Assembly (NCBI GenBank): GCA_903874895.1
Contig: CAIQUG010000028.1
Span: 1 to 48,441 of the forward strand
Length of the DNA: 48,441 nt
Direction: 5' to 3'
Source of the DNA: an uncultured Caulobacterales bacterium
GTDB taxonomy: Bacteria > Pseudomonadota > Alphaproteobacteria > Caulobacterales > Caulobacteraceae
The position numbers were made by a program, and so were the translations under genes. Shown here piece after piece: positions 1,268 through 36,787 of the stretch (the first letter of the stretch is position 1; the number at the start of each line of letters is the position of its first letter). The notes beneath the pieces are model-generated. The model was not told the DNA's origin, searched no databases, and worked only from the letters and a program-made list of their open reading frames with translations.

Positions 1268-1851
1268 GCCATCAGTTCTCCGCGATCACGGAAAAAGGCC
1301 AGCACATCCAGGAGCGGCAGGCCGAGCACCGTGAAATAGTCACCGTCCACCTGTTCGAACAATTGAGACCCCGCCGCCTCGAGATGGTATCCGCCCACCG
1401 AGGACATGACGTCGCCACCGTGTCGTTCAAGGTACCAGTCGAGCCAGGTGTCCGAAAAAGCCCGGACCTGGAGCCGGGCGGTTCGCACGGCCCGCCAGAC
1501 CGGGAGGCCATTCTCGGCGATGACGGCTGCCGAGTGAAGACTGTGGCGTCGCCCTCTCAGGTCCAGCAGTGTCCGGCGCAGATCGGCATGGGACTCCGCC
1601 TTGTCCACGAGGCGGCCATCAAGATCGAGGGTCTGATCCGCCCCGAGGACGAGGCCTGGCGTGCGGCGGGAGACCCGGACAGCTTTCAGCTCCGCCAGGG
1701 CGTCAGCCATGTCCCGCGGGCCGACCCCGTCCTGCACCAGGGCATGTTTCGCCAAGGCTTCATCCACTCCCGGCGCAACGGCGGTGAGCTCGACCCCCGC
1801 CGCCCGCAACATCGATTGGCGGGCGGAGCTGGTTGACGCCAGGACGATCAT
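1264..1851 (-). CDS. maf: Maf-family nucleotide pyrophosphatase
   Basis: A Maf/YceF/YhdE-type nucleoside triphosphate pyrophosphatase, 195 residues, expected to hydrolyse non-canonical or modified NTPs in the cytoplasm. The start IVLASTSSARQSMLRAAG is the family's phosphate-binding N-terminal motif, and later GLVLGADQTLDLDGRL supplies the conserved acidic segment. Which Maf subfamily (dTTP/UTP or m7GTP specific) it belongs to is not decided here. The ATG overlaps the ppsR stop by ATGA and the stop overlaps aroE by ATGA, so the whole cluster is one transcript. maf beside aroE and coaE is a common alphaproteobacterial arrangement near the origin. Confidence 0.93.
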   Translation of the reverse strand: MIVLASTSSARQSMLRAAGVELTAVAPGVDEALAKHALVQDGVGPRDMADALAELKAVRVSRRTPGLVLGADQTLDLDGRLVDKAESHADLRRTLLDLRGRRHSLHSAAVIAENGLPVWRAVRTARLQVRAFSDTWLDWYLERHGGDVMSSVGGYHLEAAGSQLFEQVDGDYFTVLGLPLLDVLAFFRDRGELMA

Positions 1852-2708
1852 GCGGCGGGACCATGAGAACTCGGTCGGCCTGACTGCCGGGCATTGAGCA
1901 GGTTGATGACCGCGGCGGCGGTCTCTTCCACGGATCGGCGGCTGACATCGATCACCGGCCAGCCCTGGCGTTCGAACAGTCGCCGGGCATTGACGATCTC
2001 CTCACGAACGGCATCGGCGTCCACATAGCTGCTCTCGCGGTTTTCGTTGAGCGATAACAACCGGTTCCGGCGGATCTGGATCAATCGGTCCGGGGACAGG
2101 ATCAAGCCGACAATCAAGGGCCGGGTCGTCCGGAAGAGCATTTCCGGCAGGGTCGCGCCGGGCACGAGCGGAACATTGGCGGCCCTGACACCCCGATGCG
2201 CAAGATAAATGGATGTCGGTGTCTTTGATGTCCGGCTCACGCCCACCAGTACCACGTCGGCGCTGTCGAGGTTCTGGCCACCTTGGCCGTCATCGTGGCC
2301 GATGGCGTAGTTGAGCGCTTCGATCCGGTTGAAATAGTCCGTGTCGAGGGCGTGCTGGGCGCCGACGCGGGTCGACAGCTGGGCACCGAGATAGCGGCCC
2401 AGCGCCGCTGTCATCGGGTCGAGGGCCGCGACGCAGGGTGTCATCATGGTCCGGCAGCCGTCTTCCAGGCTGGTCCGAAGTTCCCGGTCGACGATGGTAT
2501 GGACGACCATGCCGGGGGCATCCTCGATCTCCCGCAGGACCCGTTCCAGCTGACGGGTGGACCGGACCAGCGGATAGATGTGTTCGATGGGCAGGATATT
2601 GTCGAACCGGGCGCAGACCGCCTTGCTGATGGCGTTCAAGGTTTCGCCGGTGGAGTCGGACACCAGGTGCACGTGGAAGTATGTCGCGAGGCGGGCGGTG
2701 CCGACCAT
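1848..2708 (-). CDS. ppsR: Pyruvate, phosphate/water dikinase regulatory protein (DUF299, RP001 homologue)
   Basis: A bifunctional serine/threonine kinase and pyrophosphorylase family (DUF299) that turns pyruvate,water or pyruvate,phosphate dikinase off and on using ADP and phosphate. I start it at ATG 2708 (MVGTARLATYFHVHLVSDST) because family members begin just before the FHLHLVSDSTGET motif; the reading frame stays open to 2945 but the upstream 79 codons lie in origin DNA. The product is 286 residues and carries the nucleotide-binding loop VGVSRTSKTPTSIYLA. It is the first gene of the operon with maf, aroE and coaE. Its homologue RP001 is the classical left neighbour of Cori in Caulobacter and of the Rickettsia origin, which supports placing oriC just upstream. 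Confidence 0.93.
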   Translation of the reverse strand: MVGTARLATYFHVHLVSDSTGETLNAISKAVCARFDNILPIEHIYPLVRSTRQLERVLREIEDAPGMVVHTIVDRELRTSLEDGCRTMMTPCVAALDPMTAALGRYLGAQLSTRVGAQHALDTDYFNRIEALNYAIGHDDGQGGQNLDSADVVLVGVSRTSKTPTSIYLAHRGVRAANVPLVPGATLPEMLFRTTRPLIVGLILSPDRLIQIRRNRLLSLNENRESSYVDADAVREEIVNARRLFERQGWPVIDVSRRSVEETAAAVINLLNARQSGRPSSHGPAA

Positions 2709-2779
2709 GAAATCCGTCCAGGGCTTCGGCTCCCCCGCAGGGTACCGGGTCTGTTGAAAATGCTCGTCCCCCGCGGCAC

Positions 2780-2812
2780 CGCGGATAAATCCGTGGACAG
2801 ATTTGCGGATAG
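2780..2812 (-). repeat. Three phased DnaA-like 9-mers
   Basis: CGCGGATAA (2780-2788), CGTGGACAG (2792-2800) and TGCGGATAG (2804-2812) lie in the same orientation at exact 12-base intervals, separated by atc and att. Read on the minus strand they are TTATCCGCG, CTGTCCACG and CTATCCGCA, matching the DnaA box TTATCCACA at 7, 6 and 7 of 9 positions. They look like a weak, helically phased DnaA array within the origin. Each single site is weak; the regular spacing is the argument. Confidence 0.55.
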
Positions 2813-2904
2813 ACCGATGACCGGCTGGGGATGCTTCACGACAAGACGCGGTCTCGCGCCCGAATCCAAGACCTTCGGGGGATTTCGGGCACAAAACAGC
2901 GATT

Positions 2905-2925
2905 TTTTCCACGGGCTGAGCCACC
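2905..2925 (+). repeat. Two further DnaA/G-box-like 9-mers
   Basis: TTTTCCACG (2905-2913, 7 of 9 against TTATCCACA) and TGAGCCACC (2917-2925, 7 of 9 against the Caulobacter G-box TGATCCACA) lie on the plus strand 12 bases apart, the same period as the array at 2780-2812. They are probable low-affinity initiator sites. The call rests on location and spacing more than on sequence match. Confidence 0.45.
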
Positions 2926-2996
2926 GGTGGACGACTTTCTCCCAAGGTCGGGAAAAATCGCCGGGCAGGTCCGGGCAGCCGGCGTCATCCAGAGCC

Positions 2997-3005
2997 TGTG
3001 GTTAA
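2997..3005 (-). promoter_or_regulatory. DnaA-box-like site overlapping a CtrA box
   Basis: TGTGGTTAA reads TTAACCACA on the minus strand, 8 of 9 matches to TTATCCACA and the best DnaA-like match in the intergenic region. Its last four bases are the first TTAA of the CtrA box at 3002-3016, and it sits at the left edge of the AT-rich core. Binding by an initiator and a repressor here would be mutually exclusive. Confidence 0.55.
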
Positions 3006-3016
3006 TTTTTCGTTAA
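3002..3016. promoter_or_regulatory. CtrA-type box 1 (TTAA-N7-TTAA)
   Basis: TTAATTTTTCGTTAA is a perfect match to the CtrA full site TTAA-N7-TTAA. It lies in the AT-rich core of the putative origin and overlaps a DnaA-like box, which is the arrangement by which CtrA silences the Caulobacter origin. No ctrA gene is in the window, so the assignment relies on the motif and its position. Confidence 0.65.
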
Positions 3017-3029
3017 GGTTTTCCATGTG

Positions 3030-3044
3030 TTAAAAAAGTCTTAA
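3030..3044. promoter_or_regulatory. CtrA-type box 2 (TTAA-N7-TTAA)
   Basis: TTAAAAAAGTCTTAA is a second perfect TTAA-N7-TTAA, centred 28 bases from box 1. A degenerate third copy, TGAATGAATTGTTAA (TGAA-N7-TTAA), lies at 3083-3097. Two perfect copies within 45 bases are hard to explain by chance in DNA this GC-rich. Confidence 0.65.
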
Positions 3045-3179
3045 TCGTCCTTGCACACAGGCTCGGGCCCCCCAGCCAATGGTGAATGAATTGTTAATAT
3101 TCTGTCACGATATCCGCCCGGATCTGGCATGTCCCCGGTTTGACCGGCCCTACTGCCTCCTCTCCAAACCTTTTCAAGA

Positions 3180-3199
3180 CTCTTTCCAGATAGAAAGAG
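3180..3199. repeat. Inverted repeat in origin region
   Basis: CTCTTTC and GAAAGAG are perfect 7-base arms around the 6-base loop CAGATA. A GANTC site (GACTC, 3178-3182), the target of CcrM-type methylation in Alphaproteobacteria, overlaps the left arm. There is no T-run, so it is not a typical terminator; function unknown. Confidence 0.5.
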
Positions 3200-3459
3200 G
3201 GCCCGGAGAACGGGACTGGGTATGACCGGGGCCGGGGTCTTGAGAACACCATCCGACAAGGGTTTAAGCGACAGGCTCGCTTCGCCGGTCGAGACCGGGA
3301 GATGGCAAACCGGGAATGACCTGCTGCGGGCCCCGACACGCAGCCCGTTATTCGGCCAGAAACGGCAGCGGGCCATCTCGCTTCTGGTGGCAAATGTGCC
3401 TACATCACGGCGGCCGGGGATTTGACGTCGTACATACTCAGAGAAGGAACCATAAGCTC

Positions 3460-4536
3460 GTGAGCCTGAAGCGTCGCCGCATCGCCGTGGTGTTGTTCAA
3501 CCTCGGGGGGCCCGACGGGCCGGACGCAGTGCGTCCGTTCCTGTTCAATCTGTTTCGGGATCCGGCGATCATCAGCGTTCCGGCACTGGTTCGGCTGCCT
3601 CTGGCTGCGTTGATCTCGACCACGCGGGCGCCATCCGCAAAACTCAACTACGCGATCATGGGGGGAGGATCTCCCCTTCTGCCAGAGACACAGGCGCAGT
3701 CTGCCGCCCTGCTCGCAAGGCTGTCGGCGCAGGACCCGGACACGGAATTCAAGATCTTCATCGCGATGCGTTACTGGAAGCCGTTCACTGAAGTGACGGC
3801 GCGTGAAGTGGCCGCGTTCTGTCCGGATCATGTGGTGCTGCTGCCGCTTTATCCACATTTCTCGACCACCACGACGGGGTCGTCGGTCAAGGCGTGGAAC
3901 AAGGCCTATCGGGGTCCGGGCCAGGTCCATACGGTCTGCTGCTATCCGTCCGCAGACGGTTTCATAGCGGCGCATGCCGAGCGCATCCTGGAATGCTGGA
4001 AGGGGGCGGGATCACCTGCAAACGTCAGATTGCTGTTCTCGGCCCATGGACTGCCGGAGAAGGTGATCAAGGACGGGGACCCGTACCAGTCGCAGATCGA
4101 AGCGACGGCGGCGGCTGTGGCGGCGCGTCTCGGGGACGGATGGGACTGGCAGGTCTGCTATCAGAGCCGGGTCGGCCCGTTGAAGTGGATCGGCCCATCA
4201 ACGACCGACGCCATCAGCGGGGCCGCGGCTGACGGAAAAGGGGTTCTGATCACGCCCATCGCCTTTGTGTCCGAGCACGTGGAGACACTCGTCGAACTGG
4301 ATCATGAATATGCGGAACTGGCCGAGCAGCAGGGTGTGTCTCCCTATCTGCGGGCACCGGCCCTTGGTATCACCGCAGCCTTCATCGACACCCTGGCCGA
4401 GGCTGTGACAACATCCCTGGACGAGACCGGTGTCGTACCGTTCATGTGGCGCGGCTGTGATGACTGCCATCGACAATGCCCGCGGCAGCGGACCGGTGAC
4501 GTGGGCGAAAGGTCAAAGGACAAGGTGTTGGCATGA
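3460..4536 (+). CDS. hemH: Ferrochelatase, probably with a [2Fe-2S] cluster
   Basis: Inserts ferrous iron into protoporphyrin IX, the last step of haem synthesis. I start at GTG 3460 after AGAAGGAA (3442-3449), giving 358 residues beginning with SLKRRRIAVVLFNLGGPDG; the frame is open further upstream but into origin DNA. Family motifs include IAMRYWKPF, LLPLYPHFSTTTTGS, the catalytic-histidine segment LFSAHGLP and PIAFVSEHVETLVELD. Cysteines at about 160/161 and a C-terminal C333-x2-C336-x3-C340 group resemble the [2Fe-2S] ligand pattern known from Caulobacter and mycobacterial ferrochelatases. Its stop overlaps hemJ by ATGA, coupling it to the preceding step of the pathway. Confidence 0.96.
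   Translation: MSLKRRRIAVVLFNLGGPDGPDAVRPFLFNLFRDPAIISVPALVRLPLAALISTTRAPSAKLNYAIMGGGSPLLPETQAQSAALLARLSAQDPDTEFKIFIAMRYWKPFTEVTAREVAAFCPDHVVLLPLYPHFSTTTTGSSVKAWNKAYRGPGQVHTVCCYPSADGFIAAHAERILECWKGAGSPANVRLLFSAHGLPEKVIKDGDPYQSQIEATAAAVAARLGDGWDWQVCYQSRVGPLKWIGPSTTDAISGAAADGKGVLITPIAFVSEHVETLVELDHEYAELAEQQGVSPYLRAPALGITAAFIDTLAEAVTTSLDETGVVPFMWRGCDDCHRQCPRQRTGDVGERSKDKVLA
3849..3857 (+). promoter_or_regulatory. Perfect DnaA box inside hemH
   Basis: TTATCCACA occurs here exactly, about 0.8 kb from the AT-rich core. It encodes part of the conserved Leu-Tyr-Pro-His segment of ferrochelatase, so it could be a coincidence of codon choice. Confidence 0.3.
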
Positions 4537-9962: not shown

Positions 9963-9978
9963 TGTTTCACGTGGAACA
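9963..9978. promoter_or_regulatory. parS: parS centromere site
   Basis: TGTTTCACGTGGAACA lies directly after the mnmE stop codon. It fits the near-universal chromosomal parS consensus TGTTNCACGTGNAACA and is 15 of 16 identical to the perfect palindrome at 10472. The position, within 4 kb of parA-parB and about 7 kb from the putative origin, is where alphaproteobacterial parS sites are found. Confidence 0.88.
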
Positions 9979-10065: not shown

Positions 10066-11955
10066 ATGATCCACCGTACCGATCAAACCCTGAAGACCAG
10101 GCGCTGGGACGTCATTGTCATCGGCGGCGGTCATGCGGGTGTCGAGGCCGCGACCGCGTCCGCACGGGTCGGTGCCGCGACGCTTCTGGTCACGCATCGG
10201 GCCGATACTCTCGGGGAGATGTCATGCAATCCGGCCATCGGGGGTCTCGGCAAGGGACACATCGTCCGGGAGATCGATGCCCTCGATGGCATCATGGGCC
10301 GGATGGCCGACGCCGCTGGAATCCAGTTCCGGATGCTGAACCGGTCCAAGGGACCCGCGGTGCGCGGCCCCAGGGCTCAGATCGACCGCGCCCTCTATCG
10401 GAAAGCCGCGCAGGGCATTCTCGCTGACTACCCCAACCTCGACATCATCGAGGGTGCCGTGGATGACCTGGTGTTCCACGTGGAACAGGTGGGGGGCGTG
10501 CGCCTGTCCGACGGCCGGACCTACGAGGCGGAAGCCGTCGTGCTGACCACCGGAACCTTCCTCCGGGGGGTCATCCTTCGGGGAGACGAGCGCATACCCG
10601 CCGGCCGCCACGGGGAGGCGCCGGCCATTGCCCTTGCCGACCGTCTCTATGCAACCGGCCTCCAGATGGGTCGGCTCAAGACCGGTACACCGGCTCGCCT
10701 TGACGGCCGGACGATTGCCTGGTCCCGCCTCGAGATGCAGGCCGGCGACCCGGAACCGATCCCGTTCTCGTTCCTCACGGATCGGATCACCCGTCAGCAG
10801 GTGGACTGCGGTGTCACCTGGACCAACGCCGAGACGCACAGGATCATTGGAGAAAACCTCGGAGAGTCCGCGGTCTATGGCGGCAAGGCTCACGGGGTGG
10901 GTCCGCGGTACTGCCCATCCATCGAGGACAAGGTGGTCCGCTTTGCCGACAAGAGCAGCCACCAGATCTTTCTGGAGCCGGAGGGCCTCGACGATCCGAC
11001 GGTCTATCCCAATGGCATATCGACCTCCGTGGCACCGGCGACCCAGGATGCATTTCTCCGGACCATCATCGGTCTGGAGGCGGTGAAGGTCATCCGCTAC
11101 GGCTATGCCATCGAGTACGATTATGTGGACCCGCGGGAGCTCAGGCCGTCACTGGAGTGCAAGCGGGTCCCCGGGCTCTATCTGGCCGGTCAGATCAACG
11201 GCACCACCGGGTATGAGGAAGCCGCCGGTCAGGGCCTGGTGGCCGGACTGAACGCCGCGCGTCACGCCGCCGGTCGTCCCGCCGTCACCTTCGCCCGGGA
11301 TGAGGCCTATCTCGGTGTGATGATCGACGACCTGGTCACCCGGGGCGTATCCGAGCCGTATCGAATGTTCACAAGCCGCGCGGAATTCCGTCTGCTGTTG
11401 CGGGCCGACAATGCGGACCAGCGTCTGACCCCGCGCGGCATCGACCTCGGCCTCGTGGCCTCGCAACGGACGGCGCACTTTTCCGTCAAGGCGGCGGCGC
11501 TGGCGGCGGCACGGAGGATGGCCACCGAACGCTCCCTGACACCGAAGGAGGCCCGCGAACATGGACTTTTGGTGAATGCGGATGGTCAGCGGCGCGACGT
11601 ATCCCAACTTCTGACATGCCCTGGCGTCACGCTGGATCGCCTGTCGCAGATCTGGCCCGAGCTGCGATCCTGGACCGCAGAGGTTCGCGAGCAGATCGAG
11701 ATCGACGCACTCTATGCCGGGTATCTTGACCGCCAGGCGGCGGACGTCGCGGCGTTTCGCCAGGATGAGAACCTGCGGCTGGATCCCGACCTCGACTATC
11801 GCCAGGTCGGCGGCTTGAGCCACGAGGCCGTTGAGAAGTTGTCGGCCGTCCGTCCCGTCACCCTCGGGCAGGCCGCGCGGATCGAAGGGGTGACACCCGG
11901 TGCCCTGACGGCCCTACTGGGTCACGTTCGACGTGGAGCAACCGATGCCGCCTGA
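10066..11955 (+). CDS. mnmG: tRNA uridine-5-carboxymethylaminomethyl modification enzyme MnmG (GidA)
   Basis: FAD-dependent partner of MnmE in U34 modification. I start at ATG 10066, just before [20 protein letters not shown], because the dinucleotide-binding loop [20 protein letters not shown] normally lies near the N-terminus; the open frame upstream runs through the parS region. At 629 residues it equals the E. coli length. Signature segments are [43 protein letters not shown], and [21 protein letters not shown] perfect parS palindrome is embedded at 10472-10487 within VFHVEQVG. The stop lies inside the start of rsmG. Confidence 0.97.
10472..10487. promoter_or_regulatory. parS: parS site inside mnmG (perfect 16-bp palindrome)
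   Basis: TGTTCCACGTGGAACA is a perfect palindrome and a perfect match to the parS consensus. It sits in the mnmG coding sequence, translated as Phe-His-Val-Glu-Gln. Together with the site at 9963 it forms the ParB nucleation region upstream of parAB. Confidence 0.88.
11925..11940. promoter_or_regulatory. Degenerate parS-like site at mnmG/rsmG junction
   Basis: CGTTCGACGTGGAGCA matches TGTTCCACGTGGAACA at 13 of 16 positions. Its right arm contains GGAG (11935-11938), the likely Shine-Dalgarno of rsmG. Either a weak ParB site or a coincidence with the ribosome binding site. Confidence 0.35.
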
Positions 11956-12589
11956 AGTCAGTCCGGAATCGACGTCTTCGCGGCAGCTCTTCCAGCGGCG
12001 GACCGGCGCGAATGCGGAGGCCATGAACGGCATGGACGAGTACGTCCGGCTTTTGACGGACTGGAATTCGCGAATGAACCTGGTGGGACCGTCGGCCCTC
12101 GCCGAGTTCTGGGACCGTCATGCCCTGGACAGTGCACAACTTCTGGACCATGCCCCCGAGGCCCGCATCTGGGCTGACATCGGAGCGGGGGCCGGATTTC
12201 CCGGTCTCGTGCTGGCGATCCTTCTGAAGGACCGACCGGGTGTGACGGTTCATCTCATCGAAAGTATGGCCAAGCGGTGCGCCTTCCTCCGCGCCGTCTC
12301 GACCGCGCTCAATCTGCCCACACAAGTCCACAACGCCCGGGCCGAATCGCTGGACTTATCCCCAGTCGATGTGGTGACCGCGCGGGCGTGTGCCCCGCTG
12401 CCCCGACTTTTGGAGTATGCTCGTCCTCTGCTCCGCGGTTCGGCTGTCGCTCTTTTCCTGAAGGGGAAGGATGCCGAGACCGAGCTGGCAGAGGCTCGCA
12501 AGACCTGGCGCTTCACCGCCTCGCTGATGCCCAGCGTCAGTGGCGCAGACGGCCGGATCGTAAGACTTGAAAGGCTCGCTCGTGTCTGA
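11945..12589 (+). CDS. rsmG: 16S rRNA (guanine527-N7)-methyltransferase RsmG (GidB)
   Basis: SAM-dependent methylation of G527 in 16S rRNA. ATG 11945 is chosen because TGGAG lies 6-10 bases upstream; a GTG at 11933 is possible. The product is 214 residues with the family motifs [25 protein letters not shown], the SAM loop [16 protein letters not shown] and [17 protein letters not shown]. It overlaps the 3' end of mnmG by 11 bases and the start of parA lies within its last codons, so mnmG-rsmG-parA-parB appears to be one transcript. Confidence 0.95.
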
Positions 12590-13400
12590 GGCAATTTCTG
12601 AAACCGGCGCGCGGCCGCGGGTCCTGGCCGTCGCCAATCAAAAAGGCGGCGTGGGAAAGACCACGACGGCGATCAATCTCGGGACGGCACTGGCTGCGGT
12701 GGGCGAGCGCGTACTCATCATCGACATCGATCCCCAGGGCAACGCGTCGACGGGTCTCGGCGTCCGGCGGGAGCAACGGGCCCGCACCATCTATGACGTT
12801 CTGGTGGGGGGTGCCGCCATCGCCGACACGGTGGTTCACACGACCGTCCCCGGCCTGGACCTGATGCCGTCGGACGCAGACCTGTCCGGCGCAGAGATCG
12901 AACTGGGTACGGCCAATCGCCGGTCTTACCGGCTGCGCGATGCCATCGACGGCATGCCCGCCGCGGGTGCCTACGACTATGTCCTGATCGATTGTCCGCC
13001 GTCGCTCAATCTGCTGACCGTCAACGCCATGACGGCCGCGGACGCCGTTCTGGTCCCCCTGCAGTGCGAATTCTTCGCCCTCGAGGGCCTGACGCAACTG
13101 ATGCGCACGGTGGATCTGGTGCGGGGCAGCCTCAATCCCCGGCTGGAGATCCAGGGCGTTGTCCTGACCATGTATGATCGTCGCAACAGCCTGTCGGAAC
13201 AGGTGGCAGCCGATGTGCGCAGCCATTTCGGCGACAAGGTCTACAACTCCGTCATTCCCCGGAATGTCCGGGTGTCGGAGGCCCCGTCCTTCGGGAAGCC
13301 GGTGCTGATCTACGATCTCAAATGCGCAGGCAGCCAGGCCTATCTGCGGCTGGCGCGGGAAGTGGTCGGCCGCGAACGCGCGCGGCGCGTAGCGGCCTGA
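12582..13400 (+). CDS. parA: Chromosome partitioning ATPase ParA
   Basis: Walker-type ATPase that drives segregation of the ParB-parS complex. Deviant Walker A KGGVGKT at residues 21-27 (AVANQKGGVGKTTTAINLG), then IIDIDPQGNASTGLG and the YDYVLIDCPPSL Walker B. I take GTG 12582 as start (272 residues; an AAGG lies about 8 bases upstream), although an in-frame TTG at 12567 would add five residues; both overlap the end of rsmG. The protein lacks the extra N-terminal DNA-binding domain of plasmid ParA, as expected for a chromosomal type. parB follows after 10 bases. Confidence 0.96.
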   Translation: MSEAISETGARPRVLAVANQKGGVGKTTTAINLGTALAAVGERVLIIDIDPQGNASTGLGVRREQRARTIYDVLVGGAAIADTVVHTTVPGLDLMPSDADLSGAEIELGTANRRSYRLRDAIDGMPAAGAYDYVLIDCPPSLNLLTVNAMTAADAVLVPLQCEFFALEGLTQLMRTVDLVRGSLNPRLEIQGVVLTMYDRRNSLSEQVAADVRSHFGDKVYNSVIPRNVRVSEAPSFGKPVLIYDLKCAGSQAYLRLAREVVGRERARRVAA

Positions 13401-13410
13401 GGAACAGAAC

Positions 13411-14313
13411 ATGGCAGAGCAACAGGCAGGGCGCCGGGGTCTGGGACGGGGATTGTCGGCCCTGTTGGGCGAGACCGATCCGGCGCTTTCGTCATCCGAC
13501 GGGGCCGTCGCAACGGACACCCTGGGGTCCCACGAGGTCTCGATCGAACTCCTTCGGCGCAATCCGGATCAACCCCGGCGCTTTTTTGACGAGGGGGATC
13601 TCGATGATCTGGCGGCATCGATCCGGGAGAAGGGCATCCTTCAGCCGATCCTGGTCAGACCCGCACCGGGTGCGCCCGGGGAATACCAGATTGTGGCGGG
13701 AGAACGTCGCTGGCGGGCTGCTCAAAGGGCCGGACTCCATAATGTGCCCATTTTGGTGCGCGAGTTCGACGATCTGGACGTGCTCGAGATCGGCATCATC
13801 GAGAATGTCCAGCGCGCAGACCTCAACCCCCTCGAAGAAGCCAACGGCTACAAGGCCTTGATCGAGCGGTTCGGCCGGACACAAGATGTCGTGGCCCTGA
13901 CCGTTGGGAAGAGCCGCAGTCACGTGGCCAACATGCTCCGCCTTCTCAATCTCCCGGAAGGCGTCCGCGAGCATCTGGCGGAAGGGCGGATCAGCATCGG
14001 CCATGCCCGCGCCATTGCTTCGGCGCCCGACCCGGCAGCCCTCGCGGAGTCCATCGTGAAGCACGGACTGTCGGTCCGTCAGGCCGAGCAGCTCGCCCGC
14101 AAGGCCGCCGACCGTCCCACGCGCGCGTCGGCTCGTGGGCCCCGGCCGGCGCCGTCCGCCAATGCCGATGTCGCCGCCATCGAACATGATCTCGCCGATG
14201 CCCTCGGGCTGGCGGTGCAGTTGGTCTACAACGATGGCAAGGGTGAACTGCGGATCCGGTACGAAACCCTCGACCAGCTCGACGATATCTGCCAGCGCCT
14301 GACCAGCCACTAG
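13411..14313 (+). CDS. parB: Chromosome partitioning protein ParB
   Basis: CTP-dependent DNA clamp that loads at parS. The 300-residue product begins with a ParA-interacting tail AEQQAGRRGLGRGLSALLG, followed by the ParB/Srx-fold core with the CTP-binding GERRWRAAQRAGL motif and ENVQRADLNPLEEA. Next come the helix-turn-helix TVGKSRSHVANMLRLLNLP and a C-terminal dimerisation segment GKGELRIRYETLDQLDDI. Binding sites consistent with its specificity lie upstream at 9963 and 10472. The stop codon TAG is part of a CTAG that also ends nth on the other strand. Confidence 0.96.
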   Translation: MAEQQAGRRGLGRGLSALLGETDPALSSSDGAVATDTLGSHEVSIELLRRNPDQPRRFFDEGDLDDLAASIREKGILQPILVRPAPGAPGEYQIVAGERRWRAAQRAGLHNVPILVREFDDLDVLEIGIIENVQRADLNPLEEANGYKALIERFGRTQDVVALTVGKSRSHVANMLRLLNLPEGVREHLAEGRISIGHARAIASAPDPAALAESIVKHGLSVRQAEQLARKAADRPTRASARGPRPAPSANADVAAIEHDLADALGLAVQLVYNDGKGELRIRYETLDQLDDICQRLTSH

Positions 14314-35162: not shown

Positions 35163-36787
35163 ACGCCCTTCTGCGTGTCCGCAAGGGCGGTCCGGCCGCT
35201 GTCCTTGCGGGCCTTGCGGCGGCGCTGGCACATCCGCCCTTCGGGTTCCTGCCCGGTCTCCTGGGCTTTTCCGTCCTCTATCTGCTGCTGTTGCGGACCG
35301 CACCGGAGCGGCCGTTTCGATCCGCCTTCTGGCGGGGTTGGCTGTTCGGGCTGGCCTATTTCGCCGTGAGCCTCTGGTGGATCTCCGAAGCCTTCATGGT
35401 CGACGTCGCCGCCCACGGCTGGCAGGCCCCCTTCGCTGTCGCAGGCCTCGCCGGAGGCCTCGCGCTGATGTGGGGCCTGGCTGCCGGGGTGTGGCGTATC
35501 GTCACCCCTCCCGGGCTGGCCGGTGCGCTGGCCTTTGCCGGCATCCTGGCTGTCACGGAATGGCTGCGGGGCCACATCCTCACGGGCCTGCCGTGGAACC
35601 CGCCCGGCGCCGCCTGGGCCGCAGGGAGCGCGGTCAGCCAGCTGGCCTCCGTTGTGGGCATTTACGGCCTGACGCTGTTCACCCTCATTCTCACATCCCT
35701 GGTTGGTCTGGCGGCCGTGCCTGATCAGCGGCACAGGGCGCCGCCGGTGCTCGCGGCCGTGTGTGCCCTGGTGCTCGTCTGGGGTTTCGGCGCGAGCCGT
35801 CTGGCCATGGCACCTCACGGGCCGCCAGGACCGGTGGTTCGCATCATCCAGGCCAATGTGCCCCAGACGGACAAATGGGATGCGCGGACCTTCACCGAGA
35901 TCCTGGAGCGCTACACCCGCCTGACCGCGGCCCCCGCGTCGGGCCCGAAGCCGACCTATGTGATCTGGTCCGAGACTGCCATTCCTGCCCTTCTGGACGA
36001 CTATCTGGCAGAGGGCACCTGGACCGCGGCGACCGTTCAGGCAAGTCTGCAGACTGGCCAGACCCTGATCCTGGGGGCCGACCGGGCCGAGCCGACGGCC
36101 AGCCGGACGCGCTACTACAACAGCCTGTTCGTCCTGCGCCGCACCGCCGTCGGCTTCGACCGCCTGGCGGTCTACGACAAGCATCATCTGGTGCCGTTCG
36201 GCGAGTATTTCCCGGTGGACAGCCTTGCCGAGGCCACGGGCCTGAAGAAGCTCGTCCATGTGGGCGACGGCTTTGACGCCGGGCCGCCGTCCCGGGTCGT
36301 GCAAGCCAAGGGGGTCCCCGGCTTCGCGCCGATGATCTGCTACGAGAGCCTGTTTCCCGGCGCCATCGCGGACGAAGGTCGACGCGCCGCCTGGATCGTC
36401 AATGTCTCGAACGACGCCTGGTTCGGGCGCACGAGCGGGCCGATCCAGCATCTGAACCTCGCCAGCTACCGGGCCATCGAGACCGGGCTGCCCATGGCCC
36501 GGTCGACCCCCACGGGCGTGTCGGCCATGATCGATGCCTATGGCCGCTCCCTCCGGCAACTCGGTCAGGGACAGGAGGGCTTCATCGATCTTCCCCTGCC
36601 GGCCGCAGCGCCCGAGACGCCCTATCACCGGTTCGGCGACCTGATTTTCTGGGTTGTAATTATCACTATGTTTTTGCACGCTATGGCATTATTTGTGTCG
36701 GGAGGGCGAGGGGATCGTGCCGCGGTGTCGTCCTGTACGAGCCGGACGGTCGCTCCGCCCAACCCAACTCTGTCAGGCGACGCCTGA
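35159..36787 (+). CDS. lnt: Apolipoprotein N-acyltransferase
   Basis: Inner-membrane enzyme adding the third acyl chain to lipoproteins, making them substrates for the Lol system (lolA is also in the window). 542 residues. The N-terminal half has about six membrane helices; the periplasmic nitrilase-like domain shows the Glu-Lys-Cys triad in VIWSETAIPALLDDYL (~270), VYDKHHLVPFGEYFP (~339) and APMICYESLFPG (~392), plus WIVNVSNDAWFGRTSGP. A last membrane helix (IFWVVIITMFLHAMALFVSG) is encoded by unusually AT-rich DNA (36650-36700), followed by a serine/proline-rich tail. Confidence 0.96.
   Translation: MNALLRVRKGGPAAVLAGLAAALAHPPFGFLPGLLGFSVLYLLLLRTAPERPFRSAFWRGWLFGLAYFAVSLWWISEAFMVDVAAHGWQAPFAVAGLAGGLALMWGLAAGVWRIVTPPGLAGALAFAGILAVTEWLRGHILTGLPWNPPGAAWAAGSAVSQLASVVGIYGLTLFTLILTSLVGLAAVPDQRHRAPPVLAAVCALVLVWGFGASRLAMAPHGPPGPVVRIIQANVPQTDKWDARTFTEILERYTRLTAAPASGPKPTYVIWSETAIPALLDDYLAEGTWTAATVQASLQTGQTLILGADRAEPTASRTRYYNSLFVLRRTAVGFDRLAVYDKHHLVPFGEYFPVDSLAEATGLKKLVHVGDGFDAGPPSRVVQAKGVPGFAPMICYESLFPGAIADEGRRAAWIVNVSNDAWFGRTSGPIQHLNLASYRAIETGLPMARSTPTGVSAMIDAYGRSLRQLGQGQEGFIDLPLPAAAPETPYHRFGDLIFWVVIITMFLHAMALFVSGGRGDRAAVSSCTSRTVAPPNPTLSGDA

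Follow-up and report, generated by a model that had tools for sequence, protein, structure and literature searches.

Does the gene-free stretch beside the ppsR gene of this uncultured bacterium hold the origin of its chromosome, and if so, where would the DNA be opened? The stretch of DNA which we analysed, called here the window, is 48,441 nucleotides long and is one contig (C28) of a metagenome-assembled genome of 3.56 Mb in 266 contigs (genome G000). A preliminary description, made from the letters alone, had proposed that the region was the oriC of the host, with an architecture of the Cori type. Our analysis supports this proposal: positions ~2775-3245 appear to be, with a probability of about 0.93 in our estimate, the chromosomal oriC of a Caulobacteraceae bacterium, and would work like the Cori of Caulobacter. 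The evidence consists of synteny, of a tandem pair of CtrA boxes which is unique in the genome and stands at a conserved place, of the presence, 7 kb away, of the only parS sites of the genome, and of the conservation of motifs. A Cori-like origin is the expected kind of element here, and its general design is already known. We class the locus as a derived variant of Cori because we looked for the hemE border and for the G-box and found neither.

The locus and its genomic surroundings

According to our ORF calls, positions 2709-3459 are exactly the gap between two divergent genes, and the 751-base gene-free region reported beforehand next to the RP001/DUF299 gene was therefore delimited to the base. 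On the left, the start codon of ppsR (RP001/DUF299/COG1806; 1848-2708, minus strand; NCBIfam NF003742, E 6e-101) extends to position 2708. On the right, hemH (ferrochelatase; 3460-4536, plus strand; TIGR00109, E 4e-83) begins at 3460, at the place expected for hemE. An orthologue of ppsR is present in 98 of 100 relatives. The copy of the window shares 97% identity with its counterpart in "uncultured Caulobacterales bacterium AM-2014_bin-1795" (locus L003, genome G003), and 72-84% with the copies in Caulobacteraceae records that are more distant, Caulobacter and Phenylobacterium among them; because of these identities to records of the family, the host is taken as a member of Caulobacteraceae. 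Its genome encodes DnaA, and its CtrA is 91% identical to what we take to be the CtrA of C. crescentus.

The preliminary description had also placed the locus at the gene border where the origins of Caulobacter and Rickettsia lie. Half of this holds: the RP001/ppsR side is present, but the known border is hemE/RP001, and here hemH replaces hemE. In C. crescentus and Rickettsia the pair of bordering genes is hemE and COG1806 (PMC1914354), and transcription of hemE matters for Cori (PMC8959179). The hemE gene of our host is found on contig C263 (4128-5216; locus L114) and not at the border of the origin, and no remnant of it was found in the gap of the window. Genome G004, of the same genus, retains the order ppsR, origin, hemE, hemH; G000, G001 and G003 (contig C17) share one new neighbourhood of hemE, while G005 (contig C22) has another. 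In most of the genus, then, the gene is no longer at the border of the origin. These differing neighbourhoods suggest at least two relocations. In the distant loci L007 (genome G031) and L010 (genome G016), hemE is off the border as well, and these two genes are about 51% identical to the copy of the genus.

A genome-wide scan found only two parS sites, both 7 kb from the origin locus and just before parAB: TGTTTCACGTGGAACA (9963-9978), directly after the stop codon of mnmE, and TGTTCCACGTGGAACA (10472-10487), inside mnmG. Neither lies in a dedicated gap. The two ORFs which we take to be parA and parB (chromosome partitioning; 12567-14313, plus strand) were named by recognition; we ran them as tblastn queries on related loci. 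As to parS, five relatives resemble the host: all their sites fall in a single cluster on the contig carrying ppsR.

GC skew had been put forward beforehand as a check of the origin. The window alone cannot show a reversal of the skew because the left arm is off the contig. The plain GC skew of 20-kb samples was too noisy and was replaced by the skew at 4-fold degenerate sites. In the sister genome G003, this skew is not the same to the left and to the right of the locus (p 0.006); its change is best placed at 427.6 kb, the locus being at 423.3 kb, with p 0.047 over all positions and a broad bootstrap. In G016, a relative assembled in a single contig, the polarity of KOPS-like motifs splits at the locus (p 0.011), and the plain GC skew there is not significant (p 0.19). 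What remains of the check is thus a weak change about 4 kb from the locus in G003, and in this lineage the signal is too weak to serve as a test. That this change point lies 4 kb rightward, with a wide interval, would suit an origin which is in the neighbourhood but initiates elsewhere within ~20 kb, for instance near parS. We consider this exceedingly improbable, as no other place on the 521-kb contig of G003 equals the locus, which ranks first there, for DnaA and CtrA sites taken jointly, and as the conserved module described below is found at the origin locus itself.

DnaA-like and CtrA boxes in the gap

The gap has a G+C content of 57.9%, compared to 67.3% for the window. A 60-base core of about one-third G+C had been singled out in it beforehand; the 60-mer at 2985 (2985-3044) indeed has 33.3% G+C, the minimum of the 48 kb, and there, over 100 and 150 bp, the duplex is less stable than anywhere else in the window. 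This core, however, is the pair of CtrA boxes, and the likely unwinding module lies ~110 bp rightward. Low G+C alone is not diagnostic, since position 36639 of the window is also AT-rich, with 35% G+C. On the 521-kb contig of G003, about a dozen places are less stable than the origin locus.

The DnaA-like 9-mers and CtrA boxes noticed in the gap at first reading were both recovered in excess. Six 9-mers match TTATCCACA with at most 2 mismatches, where shuffled sequences give 1.24 and none of 300 shuffles reaches 6; elsewhere on the contig the count is never above 5. On the ppsR side, TTATCCGCG (2780-2788) and CTATCCGCA (2804-2812), with GTGGACAG, of the TNTCCAC type, between them, form a block (2780-2812, minus strand) which is kept in two sister species. 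The box TTTTCCACG follows at 2905-2913 (plus strand), where TTTTTCCAC/TTTGTCCAC is kept in three sister species. The best box of the E. coli type, TTAACCACA (2997-3005, minus strand), has 1 mismatch and shares a TTAA with the first CtrA box; the same overlap of a DnaA box and a CtrA box is present in the Caulobacter loci L047 and L038. A W-box TCCCCA, the weak type of DnaA box of C. crescentus, stands at 2826-2831 (minus strand) within the conserved CTGGGGAT and is identical at 6 of 6 positions in three sisters. This single exact match is to be compared to 0.9 expected in shuffles; words of the TCCCC type are strongly enriched across the origins of the family. The G-box TGATCCACA has no match in the gap at 0-1 mismatch, and three at 2 mismatches against 2.5 expected. 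The IHF consensus WATCANNNNTTR, a loose one and the only form scanned, has no match in the gap.

Exact CtrA boxes number two in the gap, compared to 0.01 in shuffles. These perfect TTAA-N7-TTAA boxes, at 3002-3016 and 3030-3044, are spaced by 28 bp, and the second is aligned in all five sister sequences. A degenerate third box, TGAA-N7-TTAA (3083-3097, 1 mismatch), is TTAA-N7-TTAA at the aligned position in L004, L006 and L086. The whole 3.56-Mb genome holds 13 exact TTAA-N7-TTAA sites, a total similar to that of the reversed control pattern (12 sites), and the only ones that are paired are the two at 3002-3044. Tandem pairs were found in 14 of 60 genomes of the family, compared to only 2 for the reversed control. 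Judging by their coordinates relative to those of ppsR, 12 of the 14 pairs lie directly upstream of that gene (the exceptions are G005 and G008), and this holds whether the downstream gene is hemE or hemH.

CtrA boxes occur at promoters too, one weak promoter-like match overlaps the boxes of the gap, and there are other AT-rich gaps in the window, such as that at 36639. Hence the region could in principle be a CtrA-controlled promoter of ppsR and hemH, AT-rich since it is regulatory, with the origin elsewhere. We judge this very unlikely: no other such pair exists in the genome and, in 12 of 14 cases in the family, the pair stands upstream of ppsR with hemE or hemH downstream, while the cluster of DnaA-like boxes, the proximity of parS and the change of skew all coincide at the locus.

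Upstream of ppsR, L010 has no pair of CtrA boxes and indeed no CtrA box at all, and L007 has a single one. The lack of tandem boxes in these two loci, together with their ~51%-identical hemE, suggests that the gene was replaced there and the control of the origin altered.

Motif positions, which we defined on the window alone, are better conserved than the rest of the gap in three sisters (Fisher p 5e-8, 5e-4 and 3e-10), and marginally so in a fourth, more distant one (p 0.05). The last ~200 bp (3260-3459) show little conservation, and their length varies from sister to sister; for this reason we place the functional core of the gap at ~2775-3245. A block resembling CGACAAGACGCGGTCT at 2837-2851 is kept in sister species and matches no known origin motif. 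Scans of the window with Rfam and for tRNAs gave no match, so that no known RNA family, such as a curated CcnA, is seen in it, and folding of the conserved block as RNA gave no structure consistent across sisters.

A candidate unwinding module

Comparison with the family indicates that the counterpart of the AT-rich unwinding region of Cori is likely 3129-3206, not 2985-3044; the 60-base low-GC core itself seems to be the counterpart of CtrA sites which, in Caulobacter L047, lie at a distance of 250-315 bp from ppsR. The module begins with a DnaA-type box, ATGTCCCCG (3129-3137, plus strand), for which the family consensus is TTNTCC[C/A]C[G/A]. It is followed by a 12-nt GC-rich spacer, GTTTGACCGGCC (3138-3149, plus strand), in which GGCC is conserved in the family according to the alignment. 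Six trio-like triplets delimited by a period-3 test come next (3150-3167, minus strand); they read CTA CTG CCT CCT CTC CAA on the plus strand, that is 3'-GAT GAC GGA GGA GAG GTT-5' on the minus strand. The tract at 3168-3206 is homologous to the AT-rich tract adjacent to hemE in the origins of other Caulobacteraceae and, from the alignment and from where the AT-rich minimum falls in relatives, is the probable duplex unwinding element. Finally, CTTGAG (3239-3244, plus strand) marks the right edge of the conserved origin and is kept without hemE. This order (box, spacer, trios, AT-rich tract, CTTGAG) is conserved across Caulobacteraceae.

The search for the module was anchored on CTTGAG, which 70 of 74 non-redundant origins carry on the plus strand and 2 on the minus strand, whether hemE is adjacent or not. 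From 70 to 125 bp upstream of it, a box TCC[CA]C[AG] is present on the plus strand in 55 of 70 origins and on the minus strand in 5. The three positions preceding this box were not part of the search; T is found at the first two of them in ~80%, and the box is therefore written TTNTCC[C/A]C[G/A]. The spacer measures 12-13 nt with GGCC in the family, and 12 nt in the window and in three sisters, whose aligned sequences were read by eye. In the 18-nt block after the spacer, the frequency of C is 0.74 in the first phase versus 0.37 and 0.29 in the others; permuting the columns gave p <= 2e-4 at three levels of de-duplication, and a control segment was flat. In the window, C occupies 6 of the 6 first positions of triplets. 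A stricter search, which required a middle T in two or more triplets, recovered the family only in part and was abandoned, as alignment on the box put the periodicity in the first base. By this criterion, the module is found in only 3 of 20 genomes from other families of the order, and consequently we do not claim it beyond Caulobacteraceae.

In the basal unwinding system, a DnaA box is followed by a spacer with a peak at 10-13 bp, by triplets starting from 3'-GAT and by AT-rich DNA; the published rule for the DnaA-trio asks for three triplets with a middle adenine (PMC8287927). In the structure from B. subtilis, Arg202 and Glu228 contact the first guanine and Asn187 the middle adenine, which cytosine can replace (PMC10721633). 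The module shares with the trio system of B. subtilis and other bacteria the box, the 12-nt GC-rich spacer, the triplets starting with 3'-GAT and the AT-rich tract (PMC8287927, PMC10721633), and it differs in that the first base of the trio (3'-G), not the middle adenine, is kept and in that the box is of the TCCCC type. The spacer falls within the range of the trio system (0-16 bp, typically 10-13), but ATGTCCCCG has 4 mismatches to TTATCCACA, where a DnaA box of that system is allowed at most 2, and 1 to the family consensus. Three consecutive triplets with a middle adenine are absent from the window, which has two in a row (GAT GAC), and the published rule, (.A.) three times, selects 8 of 41 origins of the family. 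The rule misses most members of the family because it is the first base which is kept and not the middle A. Deviant trios were expected by the authors of the rule (PMC8287927).

The block at 3150-3167 may thus be a deviant DnaA-trio, or something else. We tentatively propose, at somewhat less than even odds, that Caulobacteraceae share a module with a drifted DnaA-trio, recognizable by its first base 3'-G and preceded by a weak TTNTCCCCG box and a spacer of 12-13 nt; that the standard search mostly misses it; and that in the genus of the window it functions without hemE, which left the origin at least once. The open-access papers searched here gave no account of a trio-like module for Caulobacter, a genus that goes unmentioned in the main text of PMC8287927. 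The periodic C could also be the trace of a short leader peptide, of an element of the hemE promoter or of some other pyrimidine-rich signal. This is a serious possibility, though less likely than not: codons of high G+C produce a period of 3 as well, and only those 8 origins follow the standard rule, but each reading frame is interrupted by a stop codon in 51-83% of origins, the periodicity of C stops after 18 nt, and the module and CTTGAG persist where hemE has gone, the window included. The stops and this persistence speak against both a leader peptide and an element of hemE, and the length of the spacer and the order of the elements fit the published layout (PMC8287927).

Comparison with Cori and meaning

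The locus shares with the Cori of C. crescentus the ppsR/COG1806 border, an AT-rich tract on the hem side, parS and parAB close by, CtrA boxes (TTAA-N7-TTAA) that overlap a DnaA-like box, and weak DnaA boxes (PMC1914354, PMC4468827, PMC4285127, PMC8959179). It differs by its right border, hemH, hemE being relocated, and by its CtrA boxes, two perfect and clustered plus one degenerate, where Cori has five. It also lacks an exact G-box and the ppsR-proximal pair of a CtrA box and a G-box, a pair which is found within 60 bp of ppsR in Caulobacter L047. The hemE/RP001 origins of Rickettsia prowazekii and of other Alphaproteobacteria likewise have the RP001/COG1806 border, and their gap too contains CtrA and DnaA sites; unlike the window, they have kept the hemE border, and the gap of Rickettsia is ~384 bp long and AT-rich throughout (PMC1914354).

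From these homologies we infer how the origin would operate. DnaA would load on weak boxes of the TCCAC/TCCCC type, on the ppsR side (2780-3005) and at 3129-3137, extend across the GC-rich spacer to reach the trio-like strand (3150-3167), and open the AT-rich tract at 3168-3206, where the helicase would be loaded. In the non-replicating cell type, CtrA~P bound to the tandem boxes at 3002-3044, and to the weak one at 3083, would block initiation, one of the tandem boxes sharing bases with the best DnaA box. ParB bound to parS, 7 kb away, would carry the new origin to the opposite pole.

The analysis places oriC on the fragmented genome of an uncultured bacterium. It also means that the classic hemE border, often used for locating alphaproteobacterial origins, can go while the core of the origin stays. 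The comparison of ~50 non-redundant origins makes the opening of Cori a specific, testable question. If the trio-like block acts as a DnaA-trio, then the defining rule of a middle adenine would fail for a major model family.
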